From Prosthecobacter sp. (lineage in GTDB: Bacteria; Verrucomicrobiota; Verrucomicrobiia; Verrucomicrobiales; Verrucomicrobiaceae): a DNA stretch of 33,349 nt. The stretch lies in the NCBI RefSeq assembly GCF_029946185.1, contig NZ_JAQSEA010000167.1:1-33349 (forward strand), in the 5' to 3' direction. The notes under the pieces are model-generated. The model saw only the letters and a list, made by a program, of their open reading frames with translations, was not told the DNA's origin and searched no databases. Made by a program: the position numbers and the translations under genes. Within the stretch, counting starts at the first letter, position 1. Every line of letters begins with the position of its first letter. Below are positions 9,154 through 24,763 of this stretch, in pieces.

Positions 9154-10023
9154 ATGAAGCCGATCGTTGAAATGCTCTCCCCCCTCGCCGCCGCCGAACC
9201 GGTGGTCTGCGAGGTTGTGCGCGGGCAGGATTTTGGCTGCGTGTGGCATTACCACCCGGAGTGTGAAATCACACTGGTGTTGAAAGGCGGCAGTGAGAGG
9301 CTGGTGGGCAACAATATTTCCCGCCTCGAGCCGGGAGACCTCGTTCTGATGGGTACTAATGTGCCACACGACTACCGCAACCAGCACGCGGTGGGCGCTC
9401 CGCCTGAGGAGGTGGAGGCCATCGTGGTGCAATTCATGCCGCAACTGCCAGGACATGAGGACTGGATGCAGCGCTCAAGCATGATCCCCATACGGAGATT
9501 GTTTCAACGTGCCGAGCAGGGGCTGGAGGTCAGGGGCATCACCCGGCTGACGGCCGCACGCATCGTTCAAGAAATGCTGCATGTGCATGGCATGAAGCGT
9601 GTGATCCTGCTGCTGCAACTGCTCGACCTCCTGTCAAACTCGGAGGAGTTGCAGGAAATTTCATCCGCTGTGCTGCCGCAGCCGCGCCCGGGAGCGTCCG
9701 ACCGCATCACCCTGGCCTGTGAATACATCGCGGCGCATCTGCCGGAGCCCATATATGTGGCGGATCTGGCGGCGATCGTGGGCTTGGGCAAAAGCGCCTT
9801 CAGCCGTCTGTTCAAGAAGAGCACGGGCCGCACCGTGCCGCAGTATGTGAATGAGCTGCGCATCGCGCGTGCATGCCTCCTGCTGGCAGAGACCGACCTG
9901 ACCGTGAGCCAGATCTCCATGGACTGCGGCTTTGTTTCACCAGCGCATTTTCAACGGCAGTTCCGAGAGCACCAGCACTGCGTCCCGCTGGTCTATCGCA
10001 GCCGGGTGGCGCAGCCAGTCTGA
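9154..10023 (+). CDS. AraC family transcriptional regulator with N-terminal cupin sensor
   Basis: A 289-aa one-component regulator. Residues about 30-76 form a cupin-like ligand domain (WHYHPECEITLVLKGG, LEPGDLVLMGTNVPHDYRN), as in AraC regulators of sugar use. Residues about 190-285 carry the double helix-turn-helix: first HTH VADLAAIVGLGKSAFSRLFKKSTG, second HTH VSQISMDCGFVSPAHFQRQFREH, ending PLVYR. The usual FG-x-(S/T)-P turn after the second HTH is altered to HQHCVPLVYR. It lies downstream of the putative glycosidase and upstream of the HAD gene, all on the plus strand, which makes a role in carbohydrate metabolism plausible but unproven. No Shine-Dalgarno is evident. The stop codon is followed after one base by a copy of the dispersed repeat at 10025. 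Confidence 0.92.
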   Translation: MKPIVEMLSPLAAAEPVVCEVVRGQDFGCVWHYHPECEITLVLKGGSERLVGNNISRLEPGDLVLMGTNVPHDYRNQHAVGAPPEEVEAIVVQFMPQLPGHEDWMQRSSMIPIRRLFQRAEQGLEVRGITRLTAARIVQEMLHVHGMKRVILLLQLLDLLSNSEELQEISSAVLPQPRPGASDRITLACEYIAAHLPEPIYVADLAAIVGLGKSAFSRLFKKSTGRTVPQYVNELRIARACLLLAETDLTVSQISMDCGFVSPAHFQRQFREHQHCVPLVYRSRVAQPV

Positions 10024-10024
10024 A

Positions 10025-10109
10025 GCAAAGAGCACAAAGAGCGTCTGCTTTGCACGATTCGGGGTCTGTATGACGGGAGTGATGGTCTCGCGAATGCTTA
10101 GAGCAAGAG
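10025..10109 (+). repeat. Intergenic repeat copy A
   Basis: The first of three related intergenic elements. The 70-base core (10032-10101) begins GCACAAA and ends TGCTTAG and aligns without gaps to 11189-11258 (about 54/70 identical by hand) and 19977-20046 (about 49/70). A stem GCAAAG (10025-10030) with CTTTGC (10048-10053) matches GCGAAG/CTTCGC in copy C, a compensatory change. It starts one base after the AraC stop and ends about 60 bases before the HAD gene. Confidence 0.75.
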
Positions 10110-10115
10110 TCCATA

Positions 10116-10148
10116 GGAGCATGCAGACAGTTCTGCAATCCATGCTCC
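10116..10148 (+). terminator. Long hairpin between the AraC and HAD genes
   Basis: A perfect 8-bp stem GGAGCATG (10116-10123) with CATGCTCC (10141-10148) can be nested with GCAG/CTGC (10123-10126 with 10133-10136). It ends 24 bases before the HAD start codon. There is no T-run, so it could be a terminator, a processing site or a leader structure of the HAD gene. Confidence 0.35.
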
Positions 10149-10172
10149 AAACCCTAACCCCCCTCTAAAGTC

Positions 10173-11084
10173 ATGAATCAAACCAAGGGACTGCTGATCG
10201 ACATGGACGGTGTGATCTACCGTGAAAACCATCTGCTGCCCAAGGCGGCGGAATTCATTCATCACCTCATCGAAACTTCGACGCCCTTCGTCTTTGTCAC
10301 CAACAACTCTGCGCCCACACCTGAAGACTTGGTCGTCAAGCTCAACCATCTGGGCATCACCGGCATCTCAGCGCGGCATTTTTACACCGCCGCCATGAAC
10401 ACCGCCGAGTTTCTGGCGGAGAACCACCCCTGCTGCACCGCCTTTGTCATGGGCGATGCCGGGCTGACGCTGGCACTGCAAAAAGCGGGCATCCCCAATG
10501 ATTCGATCCGGCCCACTTACGTGGTCGTGGGCGAAGGCATGCAGTCCACGGAGAAGCTCGCCAAAGCCCATGAACTGCTGGAGAAAGGTGCGCGGCTCGT
10601 CGCCACCAATCCGGACAACTGGTGCCCGGTGAAGAAGGACGTGACGCGCCCCGGCGCAGGAGCGCTCGCCGCCTATCTGGAAGCCAGCACGGGCCAGCGC
10701 GCCTACTTCCTCGGCAAACCCAATCCGTACATGTTTCAGCGTGCACGACGTCTGCTACAGCGCCACACGGAGGAAGTGATGATGGTGGGAGACACGATGG
10801 AGACGGACATCCGCGGTGCCATTGAAGTGGGCATGCAGGCCTGCCTTGTGCTCACGGGTTCCACGCGCCTCGAAGATCTGGGCAACTACGTGTACCAGCC
10901 CACCTGTGTGCTGGAAGGTGTGGATGAACTGCTGGAGGAACTTCGTGGCGCAGGCACAAGCAGCAGCCGTTTGCAGTTTCTTGCCAACGCCACAGCCAAT
11001 GCGCAAAAGAAACCAGGAGCGAAGCATCCCGACCAGCGCACCGAGATCGCCTATCCACGCCCACGACCCGCGATGACGAAGTGA
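10173..11084 (+). CDS. HAD-IIA family hydrolase (NagD/phosphoglycolate phosphatase-like)
   Basis: A 303-aa cytoplasmic phosphatase of the HAD superfamily with a type IIA cap, which removes phosphate from small organic phosphates. All four motifs are present: motif I LLIDMDGVIY (D10, D12), motif II FVTNNS (about 48-53), the motif III lysine in FLGKPNPYMF (about 180) and motif IV MMVGDTMETDIRGA (about 205). The order and spacing match NagD-like proteins of about 250-270 aa. The last 40 or so residues (QKKPGAKHPDQRTEIAYPRP) are a basic, Pro-rich extension not typical of the family. It may be co-transcribed with the AraC gene, but a repeat and a hairpin intervene. The substrate cannot be told from sequence. 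Confidence 0.9.
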   Translation: MNQTKGLLIDMDGVIYRENHLLPKAAEFIHHLIETSTPFVFVTNNSAPTPEDLVVKLNHLGITGISARHFYTAAMNTAEFLAENHPCCTAFVMGDAGLTLALQKAGIPNDSIRPTYVVVGEGMQSTEKLAKAHELLEKGARLVATNPDNWCPVKKDVTRPGAGALAAYLEASTGQRAYFLGKPNPYMFQRARRLLQRHTEEVMMVGDTMETDIRGAIEVGMQACLVLTGSTRLEDLGNYVYQPTCVLEGVDELLEELRGAGTSSSRLQFLANATANAQKKPGAKHPDQRTEIAYPRPRPAMTK

Positions 11085-11188
11085 GCCGAAGGCTTATGCA
11101 GTGAATGGAATACCAAGAGCACAATGCAACGAATAAGAAGAAAGCGCGGAACTAGATTTCGCCATGCCATCACGCTCATTTTTGACAT

Positions 11189-11265
11189 GCACAAATAACG
11201 TCTTCTTTGCGCGATTCGGCGTCTGCATGATCGGCGGTATGGTCATGCATGTGCTTAGCAAGAGG
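11189..11265 (+). repeat. Intergenic repeat copy B
   Basis: The second copy of the element, core 11189-11258, starting GCACAAA and ending TGCTTAG with exactly the same 64-base spacing between these anchors as in copies A and C. The 5' half of the short stem seen in A and C is absent here. A TTGACA (11182-11187) lies directly before it and may serve as a -35 box, but I see no matching -10. An ATG within the element (11249) is in frame with the PATR gene downstream and should not be taken as its start. Confidence 0.7.
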
Positions 11266-11287
11266 GGTGCTCAACCAAGCTTCGCTT

Positions 11288-14200
11288 ATGCAACACCTCT
11301 TCTTTGCTTGCCGCTCACCTCGATCCTGCTGGCTGTCTGCCGCAGTGTTCCTGCTGCTTTCCATCACCGCTTCAGCGCAGCTGACATGGGACACCAGCAC
11401 TGCCGCCGGCATACAAGAAGGCAGCGGCACGTGGGACACGACCCTGACCAACTGGAATGACGGCACCGTCACCAACGTCGCCTGGAACAACACGACGAAT
11501 GCCAATACCACGGCGGTGTTTGGCCTCAACACGGTCACGACCGGTGGCACGATCACCGTGAGCGGCACCATCAATCTGGGCGGGATGAAATTCACCCCGT
11601 TCTCCGGCGTCCCCACCACCATCGCCCACACCTTCACGGGCGGGACACTGGCGTTTGCGAACAACGCGATCATTGAAACGGGGGAGTTTACCACCACTGG
11701 CAGCACGACCGCTCTGTTTGTGGTCTTGAATTCCGTCCTTACCGGCAACAATTTGACGATTCAACGGACCCCGGGCGGGGCTACCACGTTTCAATACCTG
11801 AGAATAACCGGCACCAACTCGGGTCTTCTCGGCACGCTGACTCTCAAGAGCCTTTCGTCCACGGCGGGCATCTTTCTTCAACTGACAACGCCTGCCGCAA
11901 TCTCCGGCCTCACGAGTGTCGTCGTGGAGTCCGGCAGCGTCCTTGCGATTGGTGGTGTTGGAAGTACGTATGCCGTGCCGATGACGCTGTCCGGCCTTGG
12001 GTCAAGCAGTGGCGCCATCCGCTTGGATGCCAGCGGTCAGATCATCAGCGGAGCGATCACGCTGGCCGCCACCTCGCTGATTAACAGCAATGGGGGGATC
12101 ACCGGCACCACCATCAGCTCAAGCATTGGTGAGTCCGTCGCGTTGTCAGGCTTTCAGCGCAGCGCCGTTCTAGGCGTCAGCACGATGACCTACACCGGTG
12201 CCAGCACTTTCTCAGGCGCGACCACCTTTGGCCGTCTGTCGGTGAACGGAGGCGTGAACATCTTTGATTTCCGTGCAGATGGCGCTCCCGAATCAAACAT
12301 TTTCTACCATAATGTGCCCACTCCAGGCGCCTTGAACATGATCGCTGGCAACACCACGGCCACCGTGTTCAACCTCATTGGCAAGGCGGAAACCCCAAAC
12401 AGCCAGGCCTTTGGCAATCTGGCGGTGAGCGGCACGTCCACGGCTGTCGGCGGTCTGAACGTGATCAATCTCACCTCGGGCGCGGGAGGAAGGATGGATC
12501 TCTCCCTCGGCACCATCACGCGCTCAAATTTCGCCCTGCTCGCGATCAACGCATCCGCGGTGGGAGACGTCACCTCGACCAGCACGGGCTTCATTGGCCC
12601 GTGGGCCACCTACCGCCGCGCGGAGGGGCCGGCAGGCTGGGCACAGGTCGTCGGCGGCAAGGTGACGAATGGTTACGTGGGGGATCTCCTCCATGTGTCC
12701 AATACGGCGATCTCTCTTCTGCCAGGATACACCGCGACCAAGAATCTGAACATCACGGAAGGCTCCATCGGCAACGTCACGGTCACCGGTGCCACGACCG
12801 ATTTGAACACGCTGACCATGAATGATTATTTTCGTGATCGTCTCATTGCTCTGCCCTCAAGCATCCTGCGCCTCGGCATCACCGGCGGTGTGCAGCTCGA
12901 TGGTGATGCCCGCAACCTCACGATCGGACAAGTCGGCTCCGCCGGCACATTGACCGCAGGCGGCGCAGTCATCAATACGCCCGGCCAGTTGATCCTGACG
13001 AACAACAGCACTACCAGCACCATCACGATCAACTCCGTCATCGCCAACAACGGCAGCACCGCCGGTCTCGTGGCCCTGCTGTTCAATGGCACGGCCGGTT
13101 CCAAAACCATTTTGACCGGCACCAACACCTACACCGGCATCACCTCGATTTTGTCCGGTGCGGTCGAGATTCAAAATGCGGCGGCCTTTGGCAACGTGGG
13201 CGGAATCACCGTGCAGGAGGGCGCGGCGCTGCAGCTCAGCAGCGGCATCAATTTCGCCCGCCCGACGACTGTGGGCGGGACCGGCGTCAACGCGGACGGA
13301 GTGATCCGCAGCCTCTCAGGCAGCAACACCATCAGCGGATTGATATCGCTGATCACACCCACACGGATCAATGTGGACTCCGGCATGCTGACACTCTTCC
13401 TGACCAGCGCCGCCACCAACATCATCAGCGGCACGCAGGCGCTGACTCTCGGAGGTGCGGGGAACATGGTGATCAACAGCAGCATCGCCATTGTGACGGG
13501 AACGCTGACCAAGGACGGCACCGGCACGCTGACCCTGGCCGGCACCAATGTGAACACCGGAGCCATCACCATCAACGCGGGCACCTTGAAACTGGGCAGC
13601 ACCACGGCACTGGGAGCCACCACCGCTGTGACCATCGCTGCCGGGGCCACGGTGGATCTCAACGGACAGACCACGGACCGGGCCTTCTCATCCATCAATG
13701 GCACGGGCGTCGGCAGTCTCGGGGCGCTCATCAACAGCAGCGGCACCACCGCGACGGTCACAGGCACAGCCACTCTGGGCTCAGCCACCAACATCGGTGG
13801 AACTGGCAACATCACCATCAGCAACGCCACCGGCCTGGGCGGCAACTTCCTGCTCACCAAGACCGGCAGCGGCACACTCACGGTGATCGATTCCACCACC
13901 ACCAGTGCGCGCAACGGAACCAATCAAATCGATGAAGGCACACTCCGCGTCCAGGCGAACACGGCCATCGCACCCGTAGGCATCGGCTCCTATGCCCTGA
14001 ACGGCGGCACCCTGAGCCTGGGCTTTAACGTCTCCAATACCATGACCAACGTGGTGAACCTCCTGAGCAATAGCACGATCATCGCCGACCGCGCCACCCT
14101 CGGCACCCCCGGCTTCGTCTTTACCCTGAGCACCCTGACCATCGGCGGAAACACGCTGACGGTGAAAGCAGGCGAAACTGTGGACAACGCCGGCACCATG

Positions 14201-17200
14201 GGGCTGACTTTGGGCGCAGTGAGCATCGGCGGTGTCTCCATGCGTCCGGGCAGTCCAATCTTCGATGTGCAAAGCTCAGCGCTTGTGGCCATGACGCTGA
14301 CGCTGGGTGCGTTGAGCGATCAGGCCCTTGCACCGCGCACCCTCACCTTTCAAAACAGCGGCACGCTGGGCAGCACGATCACGCTGGCATCAGCCGCCAC
14401 CAGTTTGGTCGAGGGCACCATCGTGAATCTCGCGAACACAGGCGGTGCTGTTTTGCTCAATCTCACCTCGGCTACTTCCCTTGGGAGCCTGGCGCAGGTG
14501 ACCGTGGCCAGTGGCAACACCCTCACCGCCGGCGTCACCGGCATCGTGCTTGGTTCGCTCACCGGCAGCGGCACGGTGAATGCAAGTACAACGGCCACGC
14601 TGATCATCGGCAACAGCAGCAACAGCACCGCTCTGAGCACCGACTTCAGCGGCGTGCTGAGCAACGGCACCGGCACTCTGGCGCTGACCAAGTCAGGAAC
14701 CGGCACGCTGACACTGAGCGGCAGCACTTCGAACGTTTACAACGGTGCGACCATCGTCACCACCGGCACACTGGTGCTGGCCAAGACGGACGGCGCCACA
14801 GCCGTTGGAAGCCTGGCCGGCAGTTCTCCGGCCGGCCTGATCATCGGCTCCGCGGCCGCCAGCACGGCGGGCAATGCCACGGTGCGGCTGGATGCGGACA
14901 ATCAGATGGCCCTCTTCGCCGGGGATCAGGCGGTGAACATCCTCACCATCAATGCAGGCGGCACGCTGGACATGAACGGGCACACGCTGAATGTCATGAC
15001 GCTCAGCGCCTTCTTCGGTTCCACCGTCAGCGGATCTGGCACGCTGGCGCTCAATCGCACCAGCGGTACGATCGGCTTCGGCGGCGTCAACACCCTCAGC
15101 AGCACTTTCCAGATCACCACGGCGGCCAGTTCTTCCGCCACACGCACGGTCGCTGTCGGTGCCTCGGCGGCCGACCAACTCACCATCAGCGGATCGGTCA
15201 CCCAGGCCACGGGAGTCGCGGGCAACATCACGAAAACACTGCTCGGCACTTTGATTCTCAGCGGTGACAACAGCTACTCTGGCACCACCACGATAGGCTC
15301 CAGCATTCTGAGCGGCGGCATCATCAACATCCGCAGTGCAAACGCACTCGGTTCCACGACGTCAGGCACGGTGGTGAATCTCGGATCAACGCTGCAAATT
15401 CAGGGCGGCATCACGACGGCCGCAGAGGGACTGAGTCTTGGCAGCACCGCAGGCAATCTAAACACGGGGTTCGCAGGCCTCAATGGCATCAACATCCAGA
15501 CCGGTGCATTCGTCAACGTCAGCGGCGTGAACAACTACGCTGGCCTGGTGATTCTCGCCGTGGGCGGCTCTACGATCTCCTCCGACAGCGGCACTTTAAA
15601 CCTGACCAATCCAGGCACCATGAGCGGTGCCTTCGGTCTGACTCTGGCGGGAGCAGGGGATGGCAGCATCTCCAGCGTCATCGGAATCGCCGCCGGGACC
15701 GTGACCAAAAACGGCACCGGCAGCTGGACACTCAAAGGCGTGAACACCAGCACCGGCGGCATCATCATCAATGCTGGCACCTTGAAACTTGGCGATGGCA
15801 CCAGCGGCAGGTGGACCGGCACGTCAGCGCTGACCTTTACCGGCAGCGGCACTTTGGAATACGGCGGAGCCACGACGGCCAGCACGCAGACGCTTGGCGC
15901 ACTCACACTCACCTCCGGCAGCGGTGTCCTCAAAGTGGATGCGCCAGCCTCTGGTACGAACACAGTTTCTTTCACCTCGCTCGTCACAACTGCACTGGGC
16001 ACCGGCCTGAACATTGTCTCACCCACCGGCACCAGCGTAACCATCGCTGGCGCGTCAAACATCGGGGGCATCATCGATGCGCGCCTCTATTACAACGGCG
16101 CTGATTTCGCCGCATCCACTGCCGGGGTCATCGGTGCAGCGTTCACCACCACGGCCACGAGCAGCATGAGCGCAGGCAACGCCACGCCCTATCTGATCAG
16201 TGGTTCCTTTGCTCAAACGAGTTCGGTTACCGTCAATGCGGGTTTGAAATTTACGGGAAGTGATACCCTGACGATCAGCAATGGCACGCTGCTGACGATC
16301 AACAACGGCGCGAATACTGCGGGTGGCATTTTGGTCACCGGCGGTGTGGCTGCCGTGATCGCAGACGAAGGCAGCGCCGCCGGCCTCACCACAGGCGGCA
16401 GCGGCGATCTGGTGATCGGCACCAACGCCGAAGGTGACAGCCTGAGCATTCAGGTTTCGATCACCAGCACCACCACCGGCGGTCTGACCAAGAACGGTGC
16501 TGGCACGCTGACTCTCGTGGTTGCCAACGCCTACACCGGGGCCACCAGCATCAACGCCGGAACGCTGGTGATAGGAAATACCAGCGCGCTGAGCACTTCC
16601 ACAGCCACAGTGCAGGTCGGTGCCGTGCTCGACCTCAATGGCAAGATCATCATCAACACCGCAGTCTTGAACGGAGCGGGCATCAGCAGCACAGGTGCGC
16701 TGGTCAACAACAGCGGCACCGCCGCCTCCATCGGTGCGCTGACCATCGGTCTCGGCAATGGCACGGGCGGCATCGGCGCGAGCATTGGCGGCACAGGCAG
16801 CATCACCTCCACCGGAGTGCTGAGTGGCAACAACATCCTCGTCAAGACCGGCTCAGGCACGCTGACTCTCGGTGACAGCGGCGGCACGGCACTCGCAAGT
16901 GCGCGCACGGCAGCCACTCGCATTGATGAAGGCACATTGCGCATCAGCAATTCCACCTCCGCCCTTGGCACCTCCGCAGCGGCGATCATCCTCAATGGCG
17001 GCACCTTGAGTCTCGGCAGCACGGCTTCGGTGGTGGCCTATCCCGTCTATGTCACGGCAGGTTCCACCATCGTTTCCGATGTTTACGCCGCCGGAGCCGG
17101 GCTCACTCACACACTGGGAGTCCTTGCCATCGGCGCACAGACTCTGACCATCCAAGCAGGAGACAATGTCACCACGGCCGGCACCAATGCGGGCGTCACC

Positions 17201-19948
17201 TTTGGAGCCACCACGCTGCTGGACAGTCCCACGTTTGACGTGCAAAGCCCGACCACGGCGACCAATGGCACAACCACGCTGACCTTGGGCGCTTTAAATG
17301 ATCAGGGCGTGGCCAAGACGCTCACCTTCACGAACTCCGGCGCCTCAAGCATCAACAGTACCGTCATCCTGAGCGCGGCCATGGGGAGCCTGATTGATGG
17401 CACGGTGGTGAACATCAACAGCGGCACCAATGCCGGTGTGACCTTGAGACTGAACAACGCCACGGCACTCGGCACGCTGGCGCAGGTCACGGTGAATGGG
17501 AACAGCGTGCTCAGTCTCGGAGCTGCACAGACGATTGCCTCCCTCTCTGGCAATGGCAGTGTCATCGGGAACTTTGTGCTGACCATTGGCAACGCCAACA
17601 GCGCCACGGCATGGAACAGCGATTTCACCGGCGTGCTGGGGCTCGATGGTGCGGGCACGGGCCTGGCCAAGTCCGGCCTCGGCACACTCACGCTCAGCGG
17701 TGCCAATGCCTATACCGGCGCAACGACGGTAAGCCTGGGCGTTTTGAAACTGAACAGCGCGACCGCCTTGGGTGGCACGAGCGGGGTGACGATCAGCGCC
17801 GGTGGCACTTTGGATTTGAATGGTCAAAGCACTGACCGCAACTTCACCTCGATCGGCGGCAACGGATTCAACAGCGCTGGGGCCATCATCAACAGCAGCG
17901 CCACCACCAGCACGGTCACCGGCACGACGACCCTTGCAGCGGCACCGACGACCATCGGAGGCACCGGCAACATCACTGTCAGCAACGCTGCCGGTTTGGG
18001 AGGCACGACCACGCTGCTGACCAAGTTTGGCACCGGCACTCTGACCTTCATCAGCACCGCAGCCAGCGCACGCACCGGATCGAACCAGATCAATGAAGGG
18101 ACTCTGCGCATGCAGGCGGCGACCGTTCTCGCCACCGTGGGCACTGGCGCCATGGTCTTGAACGGCGGCACCTTGAGCCTCGGTTACGATGCAGGCGGCG
18201 CGCTGACCAATGCGGTGAACATTCTGGCCAGTTCCACCATCATCGCGGATCGCGCCACCGAAGGCGCAGGCGGCTTCAGCTTCGGCCTCGGAGCCGTGAT
18301 CATAGGCGGCAGCACCCTCACCGTGAAAGCAGGCGACAACGTGACCAGCGGCACGATCGGGCTGACACTGACAACCATCACCATCGGCGGACCATCCCTC
18401 GCTCCCGGTAATCCAACCTTCGATGTGAAAAGCACCGCCAGCGCGAACGCGACATTGACTCTGGGAGCTCTGACGGATCAAGCCATCGCACCACGCACCA
18501 TCACTTTCCAAAACAGCGGCACGGGAGCCAGCAGCGTCATCCTTGCCTCAGCGGCCAGCAGCCTGGTGGATGGCACGCAGATCAATCTGGCCAGCACCGG
18601 TGGCGCGATCACGCTGAACCTCAACAACGCCATCGCCATCGGCACATTTGCCCAGGTGACCATGGCCGCAGGCAACACGCTGGCCCTTGGCACCTCACAG
18701 ACGATCAAAGCACTCAACGGCAGCGGCACGGTCCTCGCCACGGCCAATTCGGTTCTCACCATTGGCAACCCGTTGAGCCAAACGGCACCGGATTCCACCT
18801 TCACCGGTGCATTGACTGGTACAAGCCTCTCAGTGGTCAAAGCCGGAACCGGCAAGCTGACCCTCGGCGGCAGCACCGACAACACCTTCTCCGGCTCTTC
18901 GGGGCTCACAGTGAACAGCGGCACGCTCGTGCTCGCGAAAACAGGCGGTGCAGTGGCGGTATCGTCGAAACTGATCATCGGCACAGTCGGGGCAGCCTAC
19001 GGCAGCGCCACGGTGCAGTTGTCGGGAGCCAGCCAGATCGCTACGACAGCCACGGTGAACATGTATGCCCAGAGCTTTCTGGACCTGAACGGGTACAACG
19101 CCATCTTGGGTGCTCTCAACGTGACTCCTGGCGGCACGATTTTCAACAACGCCACGGGGACCACCACCACGCTGACTGTGGGCACAGGAGACACCTCGGG
19201 ACAGCAACTGGGTTCCATCGTGGACAACACCAGCGGCACCGGAACGGTGGCGCTGACGAAGACCGGCTCAGGAGCCTTTGTCCTGGGGGGATATAACACC
19301 TACTCCGGAGCCACCCAGGTGCAGGCCGGATCTCTGCAGGTCGGCCTGACCGGTATGGGCACCACGGGCATGGGTGCGGTCACGGTGGAAAGCGGCGCGA
19401 CACTCTACGGCACGGGCGTCGTGCAGGGCTCCAGCTTCACTGCGGCTAGCGGCTCCACCATTCAGGCGGGTGACGGCAGCGCTCAGGGCAGCTACGGCAC
19501 GCTCACCTTCCAGCCGGGCTCAGGTTCCAGCATCCTCGATCTTCAGGCGGGCAGCACGATCATCCTCGGACTGAACCCAGGCGGCACATCTGACCGGCTC
19601 AACATCGTGGGCACAGGCTCCACCACGCTGCTGTTCAGTGGCAACCTCACCGTCACTGCCGATGCGTTTACGCCCACCGCGCCGACGGTGTTCGATCTCC
19701 TCGATTGGTCGGGGCTAACATCAGCCCCCGTGTTTGACAGCCGCTACAGCTACACTGGCTGGCTCTATGGGAATGGGGATGAAGCCAGCGGCTTCGATCT
19801 TCCTGACATTGCAGGTTCAGGCTACATCTGGGACATCAGCAGTTTCACCACCAACGGCACCATCTCCGTCGTGCTGGTGCCCGAGCCCACCCGCTGTCTG
19901 CTGCTGGGGCTGAGCCTGGGCATTCTGCTGCTCAGGCGCAGGCGGTAG
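11288..19948 (+). CDS. Giant PATR (autotransporter-associated beta-strand repeat) protein with PEP-CTERM sorting tail
   Basis: With the ATG at 11288 this is about 2886 aa, beginning with a signal peptide ending ITASAQ. An in-frame ATG at 11249 falls in a dispersed repeat and would spoil the signal. After it comes the opening typical of these proteins (LTWDTST, GSGTWDTTLTNWNDG). A very long Gly/Thr/Ser/Asn-rich region follows, made of PATR units such as TKDGTGTLTLAGTN, ITINAGTLKLG and YTGATTV, predicted to fold as a beta-helix. I see no cysteine between the signal peptide and the tail. Three copies of a module of about 390 aa are present. The C-terminus VPEPTRCLLLGLSLGILLL followed by four arginines is a PEP-CTERM signal: PEP motif, one membrane helix, basic end. 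No autotransporter barrel is present, so export is Sec plus exosortase-type sorting to the envelope surface. Role unknown; adhesion or matrix is a guess. Confidence 0.9.
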   Translation: MQHLFFACRSPRSCWLSAAVFLLLSITASAQLTWDTSTAAGIQEGSGTWDTTLTNWNDGTVTNVAWNNTTNANTTAVFGLNTVTTGGTITVSGTINLGGMKFTPFSGVPTTIAHTFTGGTLAFANNAIIETGEFTTTGSTTALFVVLNSVLTGNNLTIQRTPGGATTFQYLRITGTNSGLLGTLTLKSLSSTAGIFLQLTTPAAISGLTSVVVESGSVLAIGGVGSTYAVPMTLSGLGSSSGAIRLDASGQIISGAITLAATSLINSNGGITGTTISSSIGESVALSGFQRSAVLGVSTMTYTGASTFSGATTFGRLSVNGGVNIFDFRADGAPESNIFYHNVPTPGALNMIAGNTTATVFNLIGKAETPNSQAFGNLAVSGTSTAVGGLNVINLTSGAGGRMDLSLGTITRSNFALLAINASAVGDVTSTSTGFIGPWATYRRAEGPAGWAQVVGGKVTNGYVGDLLHVSNTAISLLPGYTATKNLNITEGSIGNVTVTGATTDLNTLTMNDYFRDRLIALPSSILRLGITGGVQLDGDARNLTIGQVGSAGTLTAGGAVINTPGQLILTNNSTTSTITINSVIANNGSTAGLVALLFNGTAGSKTILTGTNTYTGITSILSGAVEIQNAAAFGNVGGITVQEGAALQLSSGINFARPTTVGGTGVNADGVIRSLSGSNTISGLISLITPTRINVDSGMLTLFLTSAATNIISGTQALTLGGAGNMVINSSIAIVTGTLTKDGTGTLTLAGTNVNTGAITINAGTLKLGSTTALGATTAVTIAAGATVDLNGQTTDRAFSSINGTGVGSLGALINSSGTTATVTGTATLGSATNIGGTGNITISNATGLGGNFLLTKTGSGTLTVIDSTTTSARNGTNQIDEGTLRVQANTAIAPVGIGSYALNGGTLSLGFNVSNTMTNVVNLLSNSTIIADRATLGTPGFVFTLSTLTIGGNTLTVKAGETVDNAGTMGLTLGAVSIGGVSMRPGSPIFDVQSSALVAMTLTLGALSDQALAPRTLTFQNSGTLGSTITLASAATSLVEGTIVNLANTGGAVLLNLTSATSLGSLAQVTVASGNTLTAGVTGIVLGSLTGSGTVNASTTATLIIGNSSNSTALSTDFSGVLSNGTGTLALTKSGTGTLTLSGSTSNVYNGATIVTTGTLVLAKTDGATAVGSLAGSSPAGLIIGSAAASTAGNATVRLDADNQMALFAGDQAVNILTINAGGTLDMNGHTLNVMTLSAFFGSTVSGSGTLALNRTSGTIGFGGVNTLSSTFQITTAASSSATRTVAVGASAADQLTISGSVTQATGVAGNITKTLLGTLILSGDNSYSGTTTIGSSILSGGIINIRSANALGSTTSGTVVNLGSTLQIQGGITTAAEGLSLGSTAGNLNTGFAGLNGINIQTGAFVNVSGVNNYAGLVILAVGGSTISSDSGTLNLTNPGTMSGAFGLTLAGAGDGSISSVIGIAAGTVTKNGTGSWTLKGVNTSTGGIIINAGTLKLGDGTSGRWTGTSALTFTGSGTLEYGGATTASTQTLGALTLTSGSGVLKVDAPASGTNTVSFTSLVTTALGTGLNIVSPTGTSVTIAGASNIGGIIDARLYYNGADFAASTAGVIGAAFTTTATSSMSAGNATPYLISGSFAQTSSVTVNAGLKFTGSDTLTISNGTLLTINNGANTAGGILVTGGVAAVIADEGSAAGLTTGGSGDLVIGTNAEGDSLSIQVSITSTTTGGLTKNGAGTLTLVVANAYTGATSINAGTLVIGNTSALSTSTATVQVGAVLDLNGKIIINTAVLNGAGISSTGALVNNSGTAASIGALTIGLGNGTGGIGASIGGTGSITSTGVLSGNNILVKTGSGTLTLGDSGGTALASARTAATRIDEGTLRISNSTSALGTSAAAIILNGGTLSLGSTASVVAYPVYVTAGSTIVSDVYAAGAGLTHTLGVLAIGAQTLTIQAGDNVTTAGTNAGVTFGATTLLDSPTFDVQSPTTATNGTTTLTLGALNDQGVAKTLTFTNSGASSINSTVILSAAMGSLIDGTVVNINSGTNAGVTLRLNNATALGTLAQVTVNGNSVLSLGAAQTIASLSGNGSVIGNFVLTIGNANSATAWNSDFTGVLGLDGAGTGLAKSGLGTLTLSGANAYTGATTVSLGVLKLNSATALGGTSGVTISAGGTLDLNGQSTDRNFTSIGGNGFNSAGAIINSSATTSTVTGTTTLAAAPTTIGGTGNITVSNAAGLGGTTTLLTKFGTGTLTFISTAASARTGSNQINEGTLRMQAATVLATVGTGAMVLNGGTLSLGYDAGGALTNAVNILASSTIIADRATEGAGGFSFGLGAVIIGGSTLTVKAGDNVTSGTIGLTLTTITIGGPSLAPGNPTFDVKSTASANATLTLGALTDQAIAPRTITFQNSGTGASSVILASAASSLVDGTQINLASTGGAITLNLNNAIAIGTFAQVTMAAGNTLALGTSQTIKALNGSGTVLATANSVLTIGNPLSQTAPDSTFTGALTGTSLSVVKAGTGKLTLGGSTDNTFSGSSGLTVNSGTLVLAKTGGAVAVSSKLIIGTVGAAYGSATVQLSGASQIATTATVNMYAQSFLDLNGYNAILGALNVTPGGTIFNNATGTTTTLTVGTGDTSGQQLGSIVDNTSGTGTVALTKTGSGAFVLGGYNTYSGATQVQAGSLQVGLTGMGTTGMGAVTVESGATLYGTGVVQGSSFTAASGSTIQAGDGSAQGSYGTLTFQPGSGSSILDLQAGSTIILGLNPGGTSDRLNIVGTGSTTLLFSGNLTVTADAFTPTAPTVFDLLDWSGLTSAPVFDSRYSYTGWLYGNGDEASGFDLPDIAGSGYIWDISSFTTNGTISVVLVPEPTRCLLLGLSLGILLLRRRR
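13500..14690 (+). repeat. Large internal module, copy 1 (PATR protein 1)
   Basis: About 395 codons that open with a TKDGTGTLTLAG unit, pass through LDLNGQTTDRAFSSINGTG, an INSSGTTATVTGT segment, SARNGTNQIDEGTLRVQ, LNGGTLSLG, STIIADRAT, LTVKAGE, FDVQSS, TLTLGALSDQ and LAQVTVASGN, and end at the next TKSGTGTLTLSG. The same ordered signposts recur in copies 2 and 3, which marks a duplicated multi-unit block rather than independent PATR repeats. Confidence 0.8.
16480..17665 (+). repeat. Large internal module, copy 2 (PATR protein 1)
   Basis: This copy carries the ordered signposts LTKNGAGTLTL, LDLNGKIIINTAVLNGAG, SARTAATRIDEGTLRIS, LNGGTLSLGS, STIVSDVYA, LTIQAGDNV, FDVQSP, TLTLGALNDQ and LAQVTVNGN. 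It is the most divergent of the three, for example TTDR is replaced by IINT, and abuts copy 3 directly. Confidence 0.75.
17665..18835 (+). repeat. Large internal module, copy 3 (PATR protein 1)
   Basis: This copy resembles copy 1 most: LAKSGLGTLTLSG, LDLNGQSTDRNFTSIGGNG, SARTGSNQINEGTLRMQ, LNGGTLSLGY, STIIADRAT, LTVKAGDNV, FDVKST, TLTLGALTDQAIAPRTITF and FAQVTMAAGN. What follows both copy 1 and copy 3 is also alike (TLVLAKTDGATAVG and TLVLAKTGGAVAVS), so the duplicated block may extend beyond the marked end. Confidence 0.8.
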
Positions 19949-19966
19949 CGGTCTCCATGACCTATC

Positions 19967-20048
19967 GCGAAGAAGTGCACAAAAAGCGTCTCCTTCGCCT
20001 TATTTGGGGTCCACATAGAGCCTTCCATGGTCCCGTGAATGCTTAGCA
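19967..20048 (+). repeat. Intergenic repeat copy C
   Basis: The third copy of the element (core 19977-20046), lying between the two PATR genes: it starts 18 bases after the stop of the first and ends just before the start of the second. The stem GCGAAG (19967-19972) with CTTCGC (19993-19998) matches copy A with covariation. An in-frame ATG at 20039 lies in the element's conserved TGCTTAG end and is probably not the translation start of the next gene. Confidence 0.7.
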
Positions 20049-20059
20049 TTGAGGAGTTG

Positions 20060-23000
20060 ATGTGTTCCTCCGCCATGCTCAAACCTTTCACTGCTAATCT
20101 CCGGACTCCCGCTGTACAATTCTGTGTGCAATTGATTGCGACCTTTCTGCTGCCCGCTCTTTCCATAGCCGCTTCAAGTCTGACCTGGGATGCCGATGGC
20201 ACTGCAGGAGGGAGCACCGGCGGCACGGGAGACTGGAACACGACTTCCCTGCTCTGGAACAAATCTGGCAGCATGGTCGCATGGATCAATGCCAACAGCG
20301 ACATTGCCATCTTCGGTGGCACGGCGGGCACGGTGACGCTAACGGAATCGGTCACCGCCGGCGGACTGACCTTCAACACCGATGGCTACACCCTCGTCGG
20401 CAATGGCAACACGCTGACCTTTGGCGGCACAATAACTGTCACGAATACAGCTACTCAGGCACTCCTCCAGTCCAATATAACGCTTGCTGCTGGCACGGCA
20501 TTCACTGGCTCGGGTAATATGACCCTTGATACCGCCTACAGCATAAATGGGGCAGGCTTTAACATGAGTAAATCCGGCACAGGAACGCTCAATCTAAAAG
20601 GCACAATCACCGACGTGGGCACTCTGACCCTCAGCGGCGGCACTACCAATCTGTCTGGCAGCTATGTGCGCACAAGCTACTCCACCTCTTACGGATTAAC
20701 CGTATCCAGCGGCACCTTCAATGTGACTGGCACGCTGGGAACCGCCGCCAATCCCACGGGCCAGACGGCTTTCCAGGGTGGCAGCATCACTAATTTCTCC
20801 GGCACGGCATACCTCTCCGGAGCGTCATCCACTCTCAGGATCGGTGAGAACAGCAGCGCCACGGTCAATGTCACTGCAGGAACACTCACCGTGGGAGCGG
20901 CTTCGGGCGGTCTTGTAGTGGGACGCACCTCCACCTCCGGCAACGGATACCTCAACATCTCAGGTGGCACGGTCAATGTGACGAGCAGTTCCAACGTCAT
21001 TCGCATTGGCGCGGGCTACACGAATACAGAGAACAGCGGAGCCAGCATCATGACGATCTCCGGCACCGGCCTGTTCGACAGCAGCACCACCCTAGGGAAC
21101 ATTCAACTCGGCTCAGGTCTTAGTGGGAACACAACCAGTTCAGGCACGATCAATATGGATGGCGGCACCCTGGCCACCAACCGCAACATCATGGGCGGCA
21201 GTGTTGGGACTTCGATTTTCAACTTCAACGGCGGCACCCTCAAGGCCAATGGCACGGCCATGACATTGAGCACTGGTCTGACCACGGTCAATGTGCGCAA
21301 CGGTGGTGCGGTGATCGACACCAACAACTTTGCCGTCACGATTGCCAAAGCACTGACGCATTCCAGCATTGGCGGTGACAACACCACCGATGGCGGCCTG
21401 ACAAAAAACGGCCTCGGTATTCTAACGCTCTCAGGCACTGACGCCAACACCTACACCGGCATCACACTCATTAACGTCGGTGAACTTGATCTTTCAAAGA
21501 CCGCCGGAATCAACGCTATCGCGGGAAGCATCACTATCGGTAATGGCACCACCACGGCCATGCTGAAGCTCCTAGCGAGTGATCAAATCGCAGACACCAG
21601 TGTCATCACTCTCATTGGCAGCGGGATCGATGCCGGCGTATTTCGGCTCAACGGCAAGGCGGAAACCATTGGAGGTCTCATCAGCACCGGCGGTGCAGGC
21701 ATCGTGGAAAACGAAGCCGGCAGCGCTGTGACCAGCACACTCACCGTCAATGTTGACTCCGGTTCCCAGACTTTCAGCGGCACACTGCGCAATGGAGATG
21801 GGACCGGGACAGATGGGACGCTTGCTTTCACCAAAGCAGGCGCGGGCACCCTGACCCTCAGCGGAACGAACACCTACACGGGCGCGACGACAATCAATAT
21901 GGGCACGTTGATCCTCACCGGCACCAGCACCTACGCAGGCAGCATAACGATCAACGGCGGCATGCTCACCTTGGACAGCACCAACACGTTTTCGAACAGC
22001 ACCCTGATCAACGCGGGCACCCTGCTCATCAACACTGCCAACATCTTCTCTGGCAGCATCACAATCACCGCAGGTGGTACGCTGCAATTTGGCACCAGCA
22101 ACGCCATCTCATCCACCCCGGTCCTGAATCTCACCGGAGCCGGTGGCGGCACTTCAGCAACGTTTGCCCTGAGCGGCTATAACTGGACCTCGGGAGCCAT
22201 CAATTTTTACGATGCCACCTCTGGTGCGACGAGCCTTGGCACGATCAACATCGGCAGCGGCGGAGTGCTTACAATGGGTGGCACGCTCACTGTCAACAGC
22301 ACCAACAATCCGTTGGGCGCGCTGATCACCGGCGGCACGCTGGATCTGGGCACGGCGACTCGCACCTTCGCCGTGGGTGACAGCAGCAATGCCGCGCACG
22401 ATCTCACCATTGCGTCAGCCATCACTTCGACCAGCGGTGCCTTCGGCATCACCAAAACAGGCTTGGGCAATCTGCTGCTGAGCGGCAGCGTCAACATCGC
22501 TGGCAACATCACAGTTGCCAGTGGTGTGCTCGAAGTCACCGGCACTTTGAACAATGGAGCCTCAGGGACCTCGGTAGGATCGGTGTCCGCTCCGGGCATG
22601 CTACGGCTGAGCACAGGCGCGGATTACACCACCACGACCCTCGGCATTGGCAACGCCACCAGCTATCAGGGGACACTCGTCGTCAGCGGCGGCACTTTGA
22701 CCCTCACCACCACCAACACCCAGGCCGGCATCACCCTGGGCGCCACAGGCTATGGCGGTATGTTTTTGTCTTCGGGCACCATCAACACCAAGCGCGTGGA
22801 CTCTGGAGATGGCACCACACCGGCATCCATCTCCGTGCTGCAAGTCAGTGGCGGCACGCTCAATACAGCCAACTACATCATGTTCCGCAATGAGCGCTGG
22901 GAGTTCACCGTGACGGGCGGGCAGGTATTGAGAACGGGAGAGTACATCGCGCTGGGATTCCGCAGCGGTGGCAGCGCAATCACAGCCACCACTACGGCGC

Positions 23001-24763
23001 AAGGTGCCATGACGATGGCGGGTGGATTGGTGAACAACGCAGGTTTAAGCATCACCATCGGCCAGCAGAACAACAATCTGGCGCTGGGCACCGCGTATCT
23101 CAATCTCAATGCAGGCACCCTGATCAACAACCAAATCGTTCAATACAATGGCACTGGAGCCGCGATCAATTCCTACATTAATTTCAATGGCGGAACGTTG
23201 CAGGCGTCGGTTAGCACCCCCTCGTTGATTGTCGTCAGCGGCACCGGCGGCACAGGAACACTGACCGCCTACGTCAATGGCGCTTTCGGTACTTTCAACG
23301 GTGGCGCTGTGATCAATACGGCAGGCTTCAATGTCACCATCCCCATCGCCATGAATACTCCCACTGGGAACGGCGTCACCAGCATTGCCATATCCGACGG
23401 TGGCAGCGGCTACTACGGGGCACCGTATGTGGAGATCAGCGGAGGTGGTGGCTCCGGTGCCACGGCCTTCGCCACGGTGGATCTCGATCCCACCAGCCCC
23501 ACCTATGGCAAGCTGCTCAGCATCACCATCAGCAATCCTGGCATCGGCTACACCTCCACGCCCACCATCGCATTGCTCGGCGGCGGTGGTAGCGGAGTGG
23601 TGCTGGGGACGATCAACACCGCAACCAACACCTCCGGAGGCCTCACCAAGAGCGGCCTCGGCACGCTCACGCTTTCCGGCGCGGATGCCAACACCTTCAC
23701 CGGCACATCCAGCGTCAACGCCGGTGCACTGGAGCTGTCGAAAACCGCAGGCGTCAATGCCATCGCAGGCGACATCACCCTCGGCGATGGCACCACGGGA
23801 GCGGTGGTGAAACTCATCAACAGCGACCAGATCGCTGATACCAGCGTCATCACCTTCAACGGCAGCGGTGCCAATGCTGGCATCTTCCGCCTCAACAACA
23901 AGAGCGAAACCATCGGCGGGCTCAGCAGCACAGTCGGCGCGGGCATTGTCGAAAACGAATCCGGCAGTGCCGCCACCAGCACCCTCACCGTCAATGTCGC
24001 TACCGGCTCACAAACCTACAGCGGCACACTCCGCAATGGCGACGGCAGTGGCACTGACGGCACGCTCGCCTTCACCAAAACGGGTGCAGGCACGCAGGTG
24101 CTCACCGGCAGCAACACCTACACTGGCACGACGACAATCAGCGACGGCGCGTTGCAAGCAGGCAGCAGCGGCTCCGGCACCACCGGCACAGGAGCAGTCA
24201 CCGTGCAGACTGGCGGTACCCTGCTTGGCACAGGCTTCATCAAGGGCACCAGTTTCACCGCCAGCAGCGGAGCTATTGTCCAAGCAGGTGATGGCACAAC
24301 TCAAAGCAACTACGGCACGCTCACCTTCGCACCCTTATCCGGCTCCGGCGCGCTGAACTTTCAATCCGGCAGCACGGTCATCCTTGGCATTCATCCCGGC
24401 AGCACCTCCGATCTGCTCAATATCGTGGGCACCGGTACGAATACATTTCTGTTCAACGGCAACCTCACCGTCACAGCAGACGCCTTCACTCCCACCGCGC
24501 CGGAAGTTTTCAATCTGCTCGACTGGTCAGGACTTTCCCTTTCACCCACCTTTGCCAACCGCTTCACCTTCACCAGCTATCTCACCGGCAATGGCGATGA
24601 AGCAAGCGGCCTCGACCTCCCCGACATTTCCGGCTCAGGCTACCTCTGGGACATCAGCAGCTTCACTACCAACGGCACCATCGCCATCGTCGTCCCCGAG
24701 CCCTCACGTCTGCTGCTGCTGGGCTTGGCCTTGGGACTCATGCTCATCAGGCGCAAGCGCTGA
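20060..24763 (+). CDS. PATR protein 2 with PEP-CTERM sorting tail
   Basis: About 1567 aa from the ATG at 20060, chosen because GAGGAG (20051-20056) lies just upstream; 20075 is the alternative and leaves a more compact signal peptide. The signal peptide (VQLIATFLLPALSIAA) is followed by SLTWDADGTAGGSTGGTGDW, the usual opening. Then come PATR units (GLTKNGLGILTLSGTD, NTYTGATTINMGTLILTG) interleaved with stretches of GTLTVGAASGGLVVGR type, and a Gly-rich GSGY segment (codons at 23371-23612). The last 190 or so residues are closely related to those of the upstream PATR protein, including LTVTADAFTPTAP, NGDEASGLDLPDI and YLWDISSFTTNGTI. It ends in VVPEPSRLLLLGLALGLML plus IRRKR, a PEP-CTERM signal. 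The two genes are probably paralogues sharing a sorting and anchoring module. Role unknown. Confidence 0.9.
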   Translation: MCSSAMLKPFTANLRTPAVQFCVQLIATFLLPALSIAASSLTWDADGTAGGSTGGTGDWNTTSLLWNKSGSMVAWINANSDIAIFGGTAGTVTLTESVTAGGLTFNTDGYTLVGNGNTLTFGGTITVTNTATQALLQSNITLAAGTAFTGSGNMTLDTAYSINGAGFNMSKSGTGTLNLKGTITDVGTLTLSGGTTNLSGSYVRTSYSTSYGLTVSSGTFNVTGTLGTAANPTGQTAFQGGSITNFSGTAYLSGASSTLRIGENSSATVNVTAGTLTVGAASGGLVVGRTSTSGNGYLNISGGTVNVTSSSNVIRIGAGYTNTENSGASIMTISGTGLFDSSTTLGNIQLGSGLSGNTTSSGTINMDGGTLATNRNIMGGSVGTSIFNFNGGTLKANGTAMTLSTGLTTVNVRNGGAVIDTNNFAVTIAKALTHSSIGGDNTTDGGLTKNGLGILTLSGTDANTYTGITLINVGELDLSKTAGINAIAGSITIGNGTTTAMLKLLASDQIADTSVITLIGSGIDAGVFRLNGKAETIGGLISTGGAGIVENEAGSAVTSTLTVNVDSGSQTFSGTLRNGDGTGTDGTLAFTKAGAGTLTLSGTNTYTGATTINMGTLILTGTSTYAGSITINGGMLTLDSTNTFSNSTLINAGTLLINTANIFSGSITITAGGTLQFGTSNAISSTPVLNLTGAGGGTSATFALSGYNWTSGAINFYDATSGATSLGTINIGSGGVLTMGGTLTVNSTNNPLGALITGGTLDLGTATRTFAVGDSSNAAHDLTIASAITSTSGAFGITKTGLGNLLLSGSVNIAGNITVASGVLEVTGTLNNGASGTSVGSVSAPGMLRLSTGADYTTTTLGIGNATSYQGTLVVSGGTLTLTTTNTQAGITLGATGYGGMFLSSGTINTKRVDSGDGTTPASISVLQVSGGTLNTANYIMFRNERWEFTVTGGQVLRTGEYIALGFRSGGSAITATTTAQGAMTMAGGLVNNAGLSITIGQQNNNLALGTAYLNLNAGTLINNQIVQYNGTGAAINSYINFNGGTLQASVSTPSLIVVSGTGGTGTLTAYVNGAFGTFNGGAVINTAGFNVTIPIAMNTPTGNGVTSIAISDGGSGYYGAPYVEISGGGGSGATAFATVDLDPTSPTYGKLLSITISNPGIGYTSTPTIALLGGGGSGVVLGTINTATNTSGGLTKSGLGTLTLSGADANTFTGTSSVNAGALELSKTAGVNAIAGDITLGDGTTGAVVKLINSDQIADTSVITFNGSGANAGIFRLNNKSETIGGLSSTVGAGIVENESGSAATSTLTVNVATGSQTYSGTLRNGDGSGTDGTLAFTKTGAGTQVLTGSNTYTGTTTISDGALQAGSSGSGTTGTGAVTVQTGGTLLGTGFIKGTSFTASSGAIVQAGDGTTQSNYGTLTFAPLSGSGALNFQSGSTVILGIHPGSTSDLLNIVGTGTNTFLFNGNLTVTADAFTPTAPEVFNLLDWSGLSLSPTFANRFTFTSYLTGNGDEASGLDLPDISGSGYLWDISSFTTNGTIAIVVPEPSRLLLLGLALGLMLIRRKR
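21392..21900 (+). repeat. Internal duplication, copy 1 (PATR protein 2)
   Basis: About 165 codons: GLTKNGLGILTLSGTDANTY, then LDLSKTAGINAIAGSITIG, SDQIADTSVITL, AGVFRLNGKAETIGG, GAGIVENEAGSAVTSTLTVN, SQTFSGTLRNGDGTGTDG, LAFTKAGAGTLTLSG. Every block recurs in order at 23636-24136, and the DNA is also visibly similar, which points to duplication within the gene. Confidence 0.85.
23636..24136 (+). repeat. Internal duplication, copy 2 (PATR protein 2)
   Basis: Second copy: GLTKSGLGTLTLSGADANTF, LELSKTAGVNAIAGDITLG, SDQIADTSVITF, AGIFRLNNKSETIGG, GAGIVENESGSAATSTLTVN, SQTYSGTLRNGDGSGTDG, LAFTKTGAGTQVLTG. It directly precedes the C-terminal module that is shared with PATR protein 1. Confidence 0.85.

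Follow-up and report, generated by a model that had tools for sequence, protein, structure and literature searches.

Probable control of a small group of giant surface-protein genes by a conserved two-part promoter-like module in Prosthecobacter-like bacteria

The window analysed here, a stretch of 33,349 nucleotides that makes up contig C167 of a Prosthecobacter genome (G000; 6.19 Mb in 317 contigs), carries on its forward strand a gene for an AraC-family regulator, a gene for a HAD-type hydrolase and two genes for very large PATR/PEP-CTERM-type proteins, the last three each preceded by a copy of one intergenic element. The 70-nucleotide cores of these copies (A, B and C, at 10032, 11189 and 19977) align without a gap and have 54 (A/B), 49 (A/C) and 43 (B/C) of 70 positions identical, against only 34-37 for the next-best ungapped 70-mers on both strands of the window. 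Their anchors, GCACAAA at the start and TGCTTAG at the end, are as the original prediction had described them, and so is the gene context, copy A leading to the HAD gene and copies B and C to PATR genes. The features, in order, are:

9154..10023, forward: AraC-family regulator with a cupin-type N-terminus and HTH_18 (Pfam HTH_18, 1.2e-21; Cupin_2)
10031..10046, forward: copy A, half-site 1, AGCACAAAGAGCGTCT
10051..10067, forward: copy A, half-site 2, TGCACGATTCGGGGTCT
10083..10099, forward: copy A, putative promoter-core block (GG-N10-GC), TGGTCTCGCGAATGCTT; TGG-N9-TGCT in 38 of 39 places
10173..11084, forward: HAD-IIA family hydrolase, the gene after copy A (TIGR01460 over cut-off)
11188..11203, forward: copy B, half-site 1, TGCACAAATAACGTCT
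11208..11224, forward: copy B, half-site 2, TGCGCGATTCGGCGTCT
11240..11256, forward: copy B, putative promoter-core block, TGGTCATGCATGTGCTT
11249..19948, forward: giant PATR/PEP-CTERM-type protein (TIGR02601, 7 stretches; C-terminus VPEP...RRRR by eye)
19976..19991, forward: copy C, half-site 1, TGCACAAAAAGCGTCT
19996..20012, forward: copy C, half-site 2, degenerate, CGCCTTATTTGGGGTCC
20028..20044, forward: copy C, putative promoter-core block, TGGTCCCGTGAATGCTT
20039..24763, forward: second PATR/PEP-CTERM protein (TIGR02601 and TIGR02595 over cut-off)

BLAST with copy A located a fourth copy in the same genome, and a fifth came from sequence-only models, built from four copies and later from 21. 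With the 21-copy model, 39 places are recovered at E <= 6.7e-6 from 14 of the 48 genomes of the Prosthecobacter-like genus, one to five copies in each element-bearing genome, and its weaker matches begin after a gap, at E 0.0017. These weaker matches were not taken as members: 12 of the 13 loci inspected overlap an open reading frame (ORF) of at least 150 residues (weak evidence in GC-rich DNA), and L078 (G001, E 0.0017) has TGG-N9-TGC but lies inside a 466-residue ORF on the opposite strand. The remaining match, L079:1438-1482 (G056:C127), is a possible partial copy: it is intergenic and holds the 5′ block only, with no 3′ core, and an ORF with a signal-peptide-like stretch lies about 100 nt downstream. 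Beyond the genus, an order-wide scan of 141 genomes yielded three matches (E 0.003-0.0095), all from among the 13 inspected loci and each overlapping an ORF, and a scan of 387 genomes of the phylum, with few candidates scored per genome and the other genus members there element-less, returned the window's own genome only. A degenerate pattern, narrower than the model, matched 13 stretches in the genomes of 84,980 species, all from Verrucomicrobia MAGs and four of them, from two MAGs, under the name Prosthecobacter; it matched no viral contig. Convincing family members outside the Prosthecobacter-like genus were thus not found in these scans. According to the original prediction, scattered matches or a lack of conservation would have made the element a decaying repeat; the regulatory reading survives the genome scans.

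Across the 38 core-bearing copies, two tandem half-sites, TGCACAAATAGCGTCT and TGCGCGATTTGGGGTCT, with starts 20 bp apart, occupy columns 1-37; their consensus is TGCRC-N5-GSGTCT followed by TGCRC-N6-GGGTCT at a spacing of 20-21 bp. Counted from the first base, TGG lies at 52 bp in 25 of these copies and at 53 bp in 13, with a gap of 15 or 16 bp between half-site 2 and TGG. The motif TGG-N9-TGC, required for anchoring a copy, is present in 38 of the 39 places and is followed by T in 38 of 38. The one place that fails it, G021b (L054:183-229, G021:C70), has the AraC gene and the half-sites and lacks the promoter core, its sequence leaving the family 182 nt before the contig end through a rearrangement or an assembly effect. 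As a direct repeat the two halves match at 9.66 of 16 positions, compared with a mean of 3.84 and a maximum of 8.95 in column-order shuffles (n=2000); an imperfect inverted-repeat reading reaches 5.26 of 9, and the direct reading also gives 5.26 of 9 and extends to 16. Half-sites show no covariation with each other within copies, and GTC(T) is repeated every 21 bp, at columns 13, 34 and 55. NtrC dyads were found in one of 38 copies and were dropped.

Conservation follows this anatomy. Between paralogous groups (602 pairs) the two half-sites reach identities of 0.77 and 0.71, the core 0.64 and the left half of the spacer 0.44; the right half of the spacer, the upstream flank and the downstream flank have 0.34, 0.27 and 0.31, where shuffled sequences give 0.25-0.31. 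Within orthologous groups the half-sites stand out in five of five (0.68-0.90) and the core in groups B-E (0.66-0.85). In group A, where the flank coincides with the end of the AraC gene, the core, at 0.75, does not exceed this flank, at 0.74-0.77.

A gene of one of three kinds follows on the same strand, starting within 420 nt, at 37 of the 39 places: a PATR gene at 22, a HAD gene at 7 and a small HTH ORF at 8, the places without a recognised downstream gene being G017a and G021b. When the 39 places are grouped by downstream gene, synteny and sequence likeness, group A (the HAD slot) comprises eight, seven before a HAD gene plus G021b; groups B (seven), C (six) and E (four), together with one place each in G011, G044, G015, G057 and G043, have giant proteins downstream; and group D comprises nine, with an HTH ORF of 69-70 residues after eight and none at G017a. 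All 22 giant proteins score over the cut-off for TIGR02601, many of the frames being cut at the fetched end, and the one at 11249..19948 gave no match to PEP-CTERM families. The HAD gene is found (E <= 1e-60) in 7 of 48 genomes, the same seven that hold a complete copy A; at G042:C8:22672-23575 (L110) it appears as two overlapping frames, by frameshift or assembly error. The ORF that follows eight of the nine D copies, on the reverse strand at L063:2363-2572 (G000:C103) in the window's own genome, encodes a conserved 69-residue protein with a transposase-like HTH (PF01527), and its eight sequences differ at 115, 75 and 463 sites in codon positions 1, 2 and 3, so that it looks selected as a protein. 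PATR repeats are very numerous and occur in 48 of 48 genomes (per-genome counts being lower bounds), and exosortase likewise in 48 at E <= 1e-5, 45 over the cut-off; since PATR repeats are ubiquitous and the element is confined to 39 places, the module tags only a fraction of PATR genes.

Thirteen of the 14 element-bearing genomes, the window's own among the thirteen, have an orthologue of the AraC-family regulator (60-92% identity, tblastn) within about 40 bp on the 5′ side of an element. The exception is G017, whose single D-type copy is on a 6.7 kb contig with no AraC gene there. In G011, G015, G043, G044 and G057 the AraC gene precedes the PATR gene, and the HAD gene was not found in these five. 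In each of the 12 orthologues compared, the DNA-binding part (residues 186-285) is better kept than residues 1-180, with domain boundaries of our own choosing, most clearly in G044 (91 against 71%), with 73 against 72% in G015. This gene linkage and the operator-like layout of the half-sites make the product of the neighbouring gene the best candidate binder. The region upstream of the AraC gene itself (up to 400 nt, 13 loci) has a best half-site score of 8.8, against 23-28 in 12 real first half-sites, and thus gives no sign of autoregulation.

Taken together, the three stretches are probably copies of one control switch, a regulator docking site at a fixed distance from a promoter, which probably governs a limited group of genes for giant surface proteins in Prosthecobacter-like bacteria. 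The molecular reading that we favour, and consider probable, is an AraC-bound tandem operator joined to a promoter core and controlling a small PATR regulon. Each copy would be a compact promoter module, the 5′ 37 bp forming a tandem operator whose two direct half-sites would both be bound by a dimer of the AraC-family regulator (9154-10023), and the 3′ part, fixed 52-53 bp from the first base, serving as a promoter core, TGG-N9-TGCT, for which a sigma-54-type GG-N10-GC seems the best reading. Transcription would start near 10109, 11266 and 20054. Whatever the sign of this regulation and the signal behind it, the regulator would act on the HAD gene and the two PATR genes of the window and, in trans, on the small HTH gene and one further PATR gene elsewhere in the genome. 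Protein-binding sites co-regulating surface-protein genes were among the possibilities originally put forward, and conservation, spacing and downstream genes support them. It had also been suggested that ATGs inside two copies could mislead gene callers into over-long starts: those in copies B and C do yield the ORF starts 11249 and 20039, which overlap the conserved TGC and would therefore sit upstream of transcription, and that the frames are over-long can be presumed from this arrangement. The likely true start of the giant protein is ATG 11288, which is equidistant with an ATG in the orthologues of G012, G039 and G042, and that of the second PATR protein is likely ATG 20075.

As to the sigma factor, the invariant letters of the core occupy the key positions of a sigma-54 promoter, GG-N10-GC at -24/-12, in 38 of 39 places, and no conserved sigma-70-type -10/-35 hexamer is seen in the column profile of the module; judging from such letters, we lean towards a sigma-54-type -24/-12 element. 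The extended sigma-54 consensus is TGGCACG-N4-TTGCW. The cores agree with it at 7-9 of 12 positions, CAC being absent, and the 59 TGG-N9-TGC sites of the window at 6-9, with one at 11; as the other sites score alike, the consensus beyond TGG/TGC is not enriched in the core. By eye, G046d and G046e have a Shine-Dalgarno-like stretch at or before the start that the sigma-54 core predicts. Elsewhere in the window's own genome, upstream of rtcR (L067, about 2727), there is a possible canonical sigma-54 promoter, TGGCACGCCACTAGCAT, beside RtcR and followed by what looks, by eye, like tRNA sequence. This possible rtc promoter reads TGGCACG; it was not found at the place searched in G012 and G023, though the G023 frame may not be a clean rtcR.

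The genomes are equipped for sigma-54 transcription, with rpoN in 43 of 48 and in 13 of the 14 element-bearing ones (G002 gave no match) and sigma-54 activators in 48 of 48, the window's own genome having five PF00158 proteins. G018, G019, G037, G038 and G054 each have a second rpoN match, and on that contig a sigma-54 activator match is no more than about 3 kb away. Among 21 genomes sampled, with a subset of matches fetched, activator type a occurs in all but G015 and G039 and type b in all but G015 and G057. An activator with a receiver and GSFTGA, encoded at L064:1063-2541 (forward strand, G000:C200), has no HTH match at E <= 0.1 in the window's own genome, where this was tested, and its type is present in 19 of the 21 genomes. 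Transcription by sigma-54 needs an AAA+ activator, and AraC proteins are not AAA+ activators, so an AraC operator combined with a sigma-54 core fits no textbook class. We know of no AraC/XylS regulator working with a sigma-54 promoter in this way, and a limited literature search, largely at title level, did not show one. The full combination, in which an AraC/XylS-family regulator would serve a sigma-54-type promoter from a promoter-proximal operator in rigid phase, possibly together with the G000:C200 ATPase that lacks its own DNA-binding domain, is put forward as a tentative proposal, possible but less likely than not.

If the operator is kept and the sigma factor exchanged, TGG-N9-TGCT would be contacted by a different sigma factor or by some second protein, a possible though rather unlikely reading that overlaps the favoured one in everything save the core. 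It shares the AraC linkage, it suits the weak sigma-54 consensus outside TGG/TGC, and the 21-bp phase of GTC(T) means that part of TGG could be a third half-site; the lack of a conserved sigma-70 hexamer of the usual kind and the coincidence of the invariant bases with the sigma-54 key positions speak against it.

That an NtrC-type activator binds the 5′ block as the enhancer of a classical sigma-54 promoter was the first reading of that block, for which the candidate activators were narrowed to types a and b. It was demoted once the AraC linkage emerged; we now regard it as unlikely. PrsR is proposed to act likewise on proteobacterial PEP-CTERM genes, and GG-N10-GC in 38 of 39 places, rpoN and the five PF00158 proteins all agree with such a scheme. 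Its best candidate would be the orphan response regulator of G000:C52 (type b), which has a receiver, GAFTGA and a Fis HTH and is present in 12 of the 14 element-bearing genomes; for the other two, G015 and G057 (81 and 78% complete), one of three and one of two activator matches were fetched. However, types a and b also occur in seven of seven element-less genomes sampled, no activator gene lies beside the elements examined whereas the AraC gene does, the half-site layout is AraC-like, and the close, rigid spacing (half-sites at about -78 to -42) departs from the 32-92 nt spacer of Proteobacteria. A tree of activator b from 12 element-bearing and 7 element-less genomes of the 48 required 6 changes for the element, and 364 of 500 shuffles needed no more.

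A decaying mobile or interspersed repeat would account for one to five copies per element-bearing genome, a patchy distribution and the lack of a recognised downstream gene at G017a and G021b, but is highly improbable given that 37 of 39 places lie before three gene kinds in the same orientation, that many of these positions are orthologous, that the blocks are conserved while the flanks are at background level, and that no viral contig matches the pattern; the small non-coding repeat of the original prediction falls with it, as a PATR, HAD or small-HTH gene follows on the same strand at those 37 places. A structured RNA leader or riboswitch, the former also among the original suggestions, can practically be discounted. 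The flanking stem with a compensating change that had been pointed out in copies A and C is indeed there, but in no other of the 38 copies. Fold z-scores are -1.70 to +1.23 (eight strands: four copies, both strands), the consensus fold of 21 sequences has -1.29 kcal/mol with 0 of 8 pairs compensated, and Rfam at its gathering scores matches nothing in the window.

On the control of PATR genes in this genus we found nothing in print, and a search with most subscription journals outside its scope likewise gave nothing on this element or on Prosthecobacter with RpoN or PEP-CTERM; the accessible text of a 2025 sigma-54 survey (PMC12316311) contains neither “PEP-CTERM” nor “autotransporter”. A shared promoter box, found in the 2006 analysis only in Proteobacteria, here has a counterpart in a testable regulon of a few PATR genes with a likely regulator, and the module points to corrected start codons for two very large proteins.

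The favoured module can be set beside three known systems. Its operator half resembles the AraC/XylS operators of XylS/Pm, MekR and MtlR, in that the promoter is preceded by two bipartite half-sites in direct orientation, each about 15-17 bp long and set at an interval of roughly 21 bp; in the available text, the XylS operator is given as TGCA-N6-GGNTA-N6-TGCA-N6-GGNTA, Rob and SoxS sites as GCAC-N7-..., and the MtlR operator as also of tandem plan (PMC4514859). The module has, in addition, an AraC-family gene next door. Unlike those systems, it has a core that looks sigma-54-like rather than -35/-10, and its binding by AraC is a prediction. Its promoter half is similar to that of pepA in Aquincola tertiaricarbonis, a PEP-CTERM gene whose control by RpoN was shown experimentally and which, in the text available, has a mapped start and the -24/-12 motifs TGGCAC and CTGCTT; pepA differs from the core here in its canonical CAC and in a Haft-type enhancer said to lie upstream (PMC9850573).

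As a whole, the module is similar in working to the two-motif sigma-54 element that precedes 99 of 167 proteobacterial PEP-CTERM genes and that, among the species studied, is common to Proteobacteria only (Haft et al., 2006; PMC1569441). Both are two-part cis elements before PEP-CTERM-type surface genes, with a GG/GC core and an upstream protein site, and both also precede a few other genes (PMC1569441). In contrast, motif 1 of the proteobacterial box ends in TTTACA, a sequence that none of the 38 core-bearing copies has in the 140 nt before the core, and the spacer of that box is 32-92 nt, as against 15 or 16 bp from half-site 2 to TGG (PMC1569441). The table in the accessible part of that article lists no PrsK or PrsR for Verrucomicrobium spinosum (PMC1569441), and none of the five activators of the window's own genome passes the cut-off for PrsR (TIGR02915), the best scoring 408.2 against 502.6 bits. 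With no TTTACA, no PrsR in its own genome and a rigid spacing, the module is therefore not a member of the proteobacterial PEP-CTERM box, though alike in working. The regulon proposed here suggests that PEP-CTERM-type genes came under dedicated control on more than one occasion.
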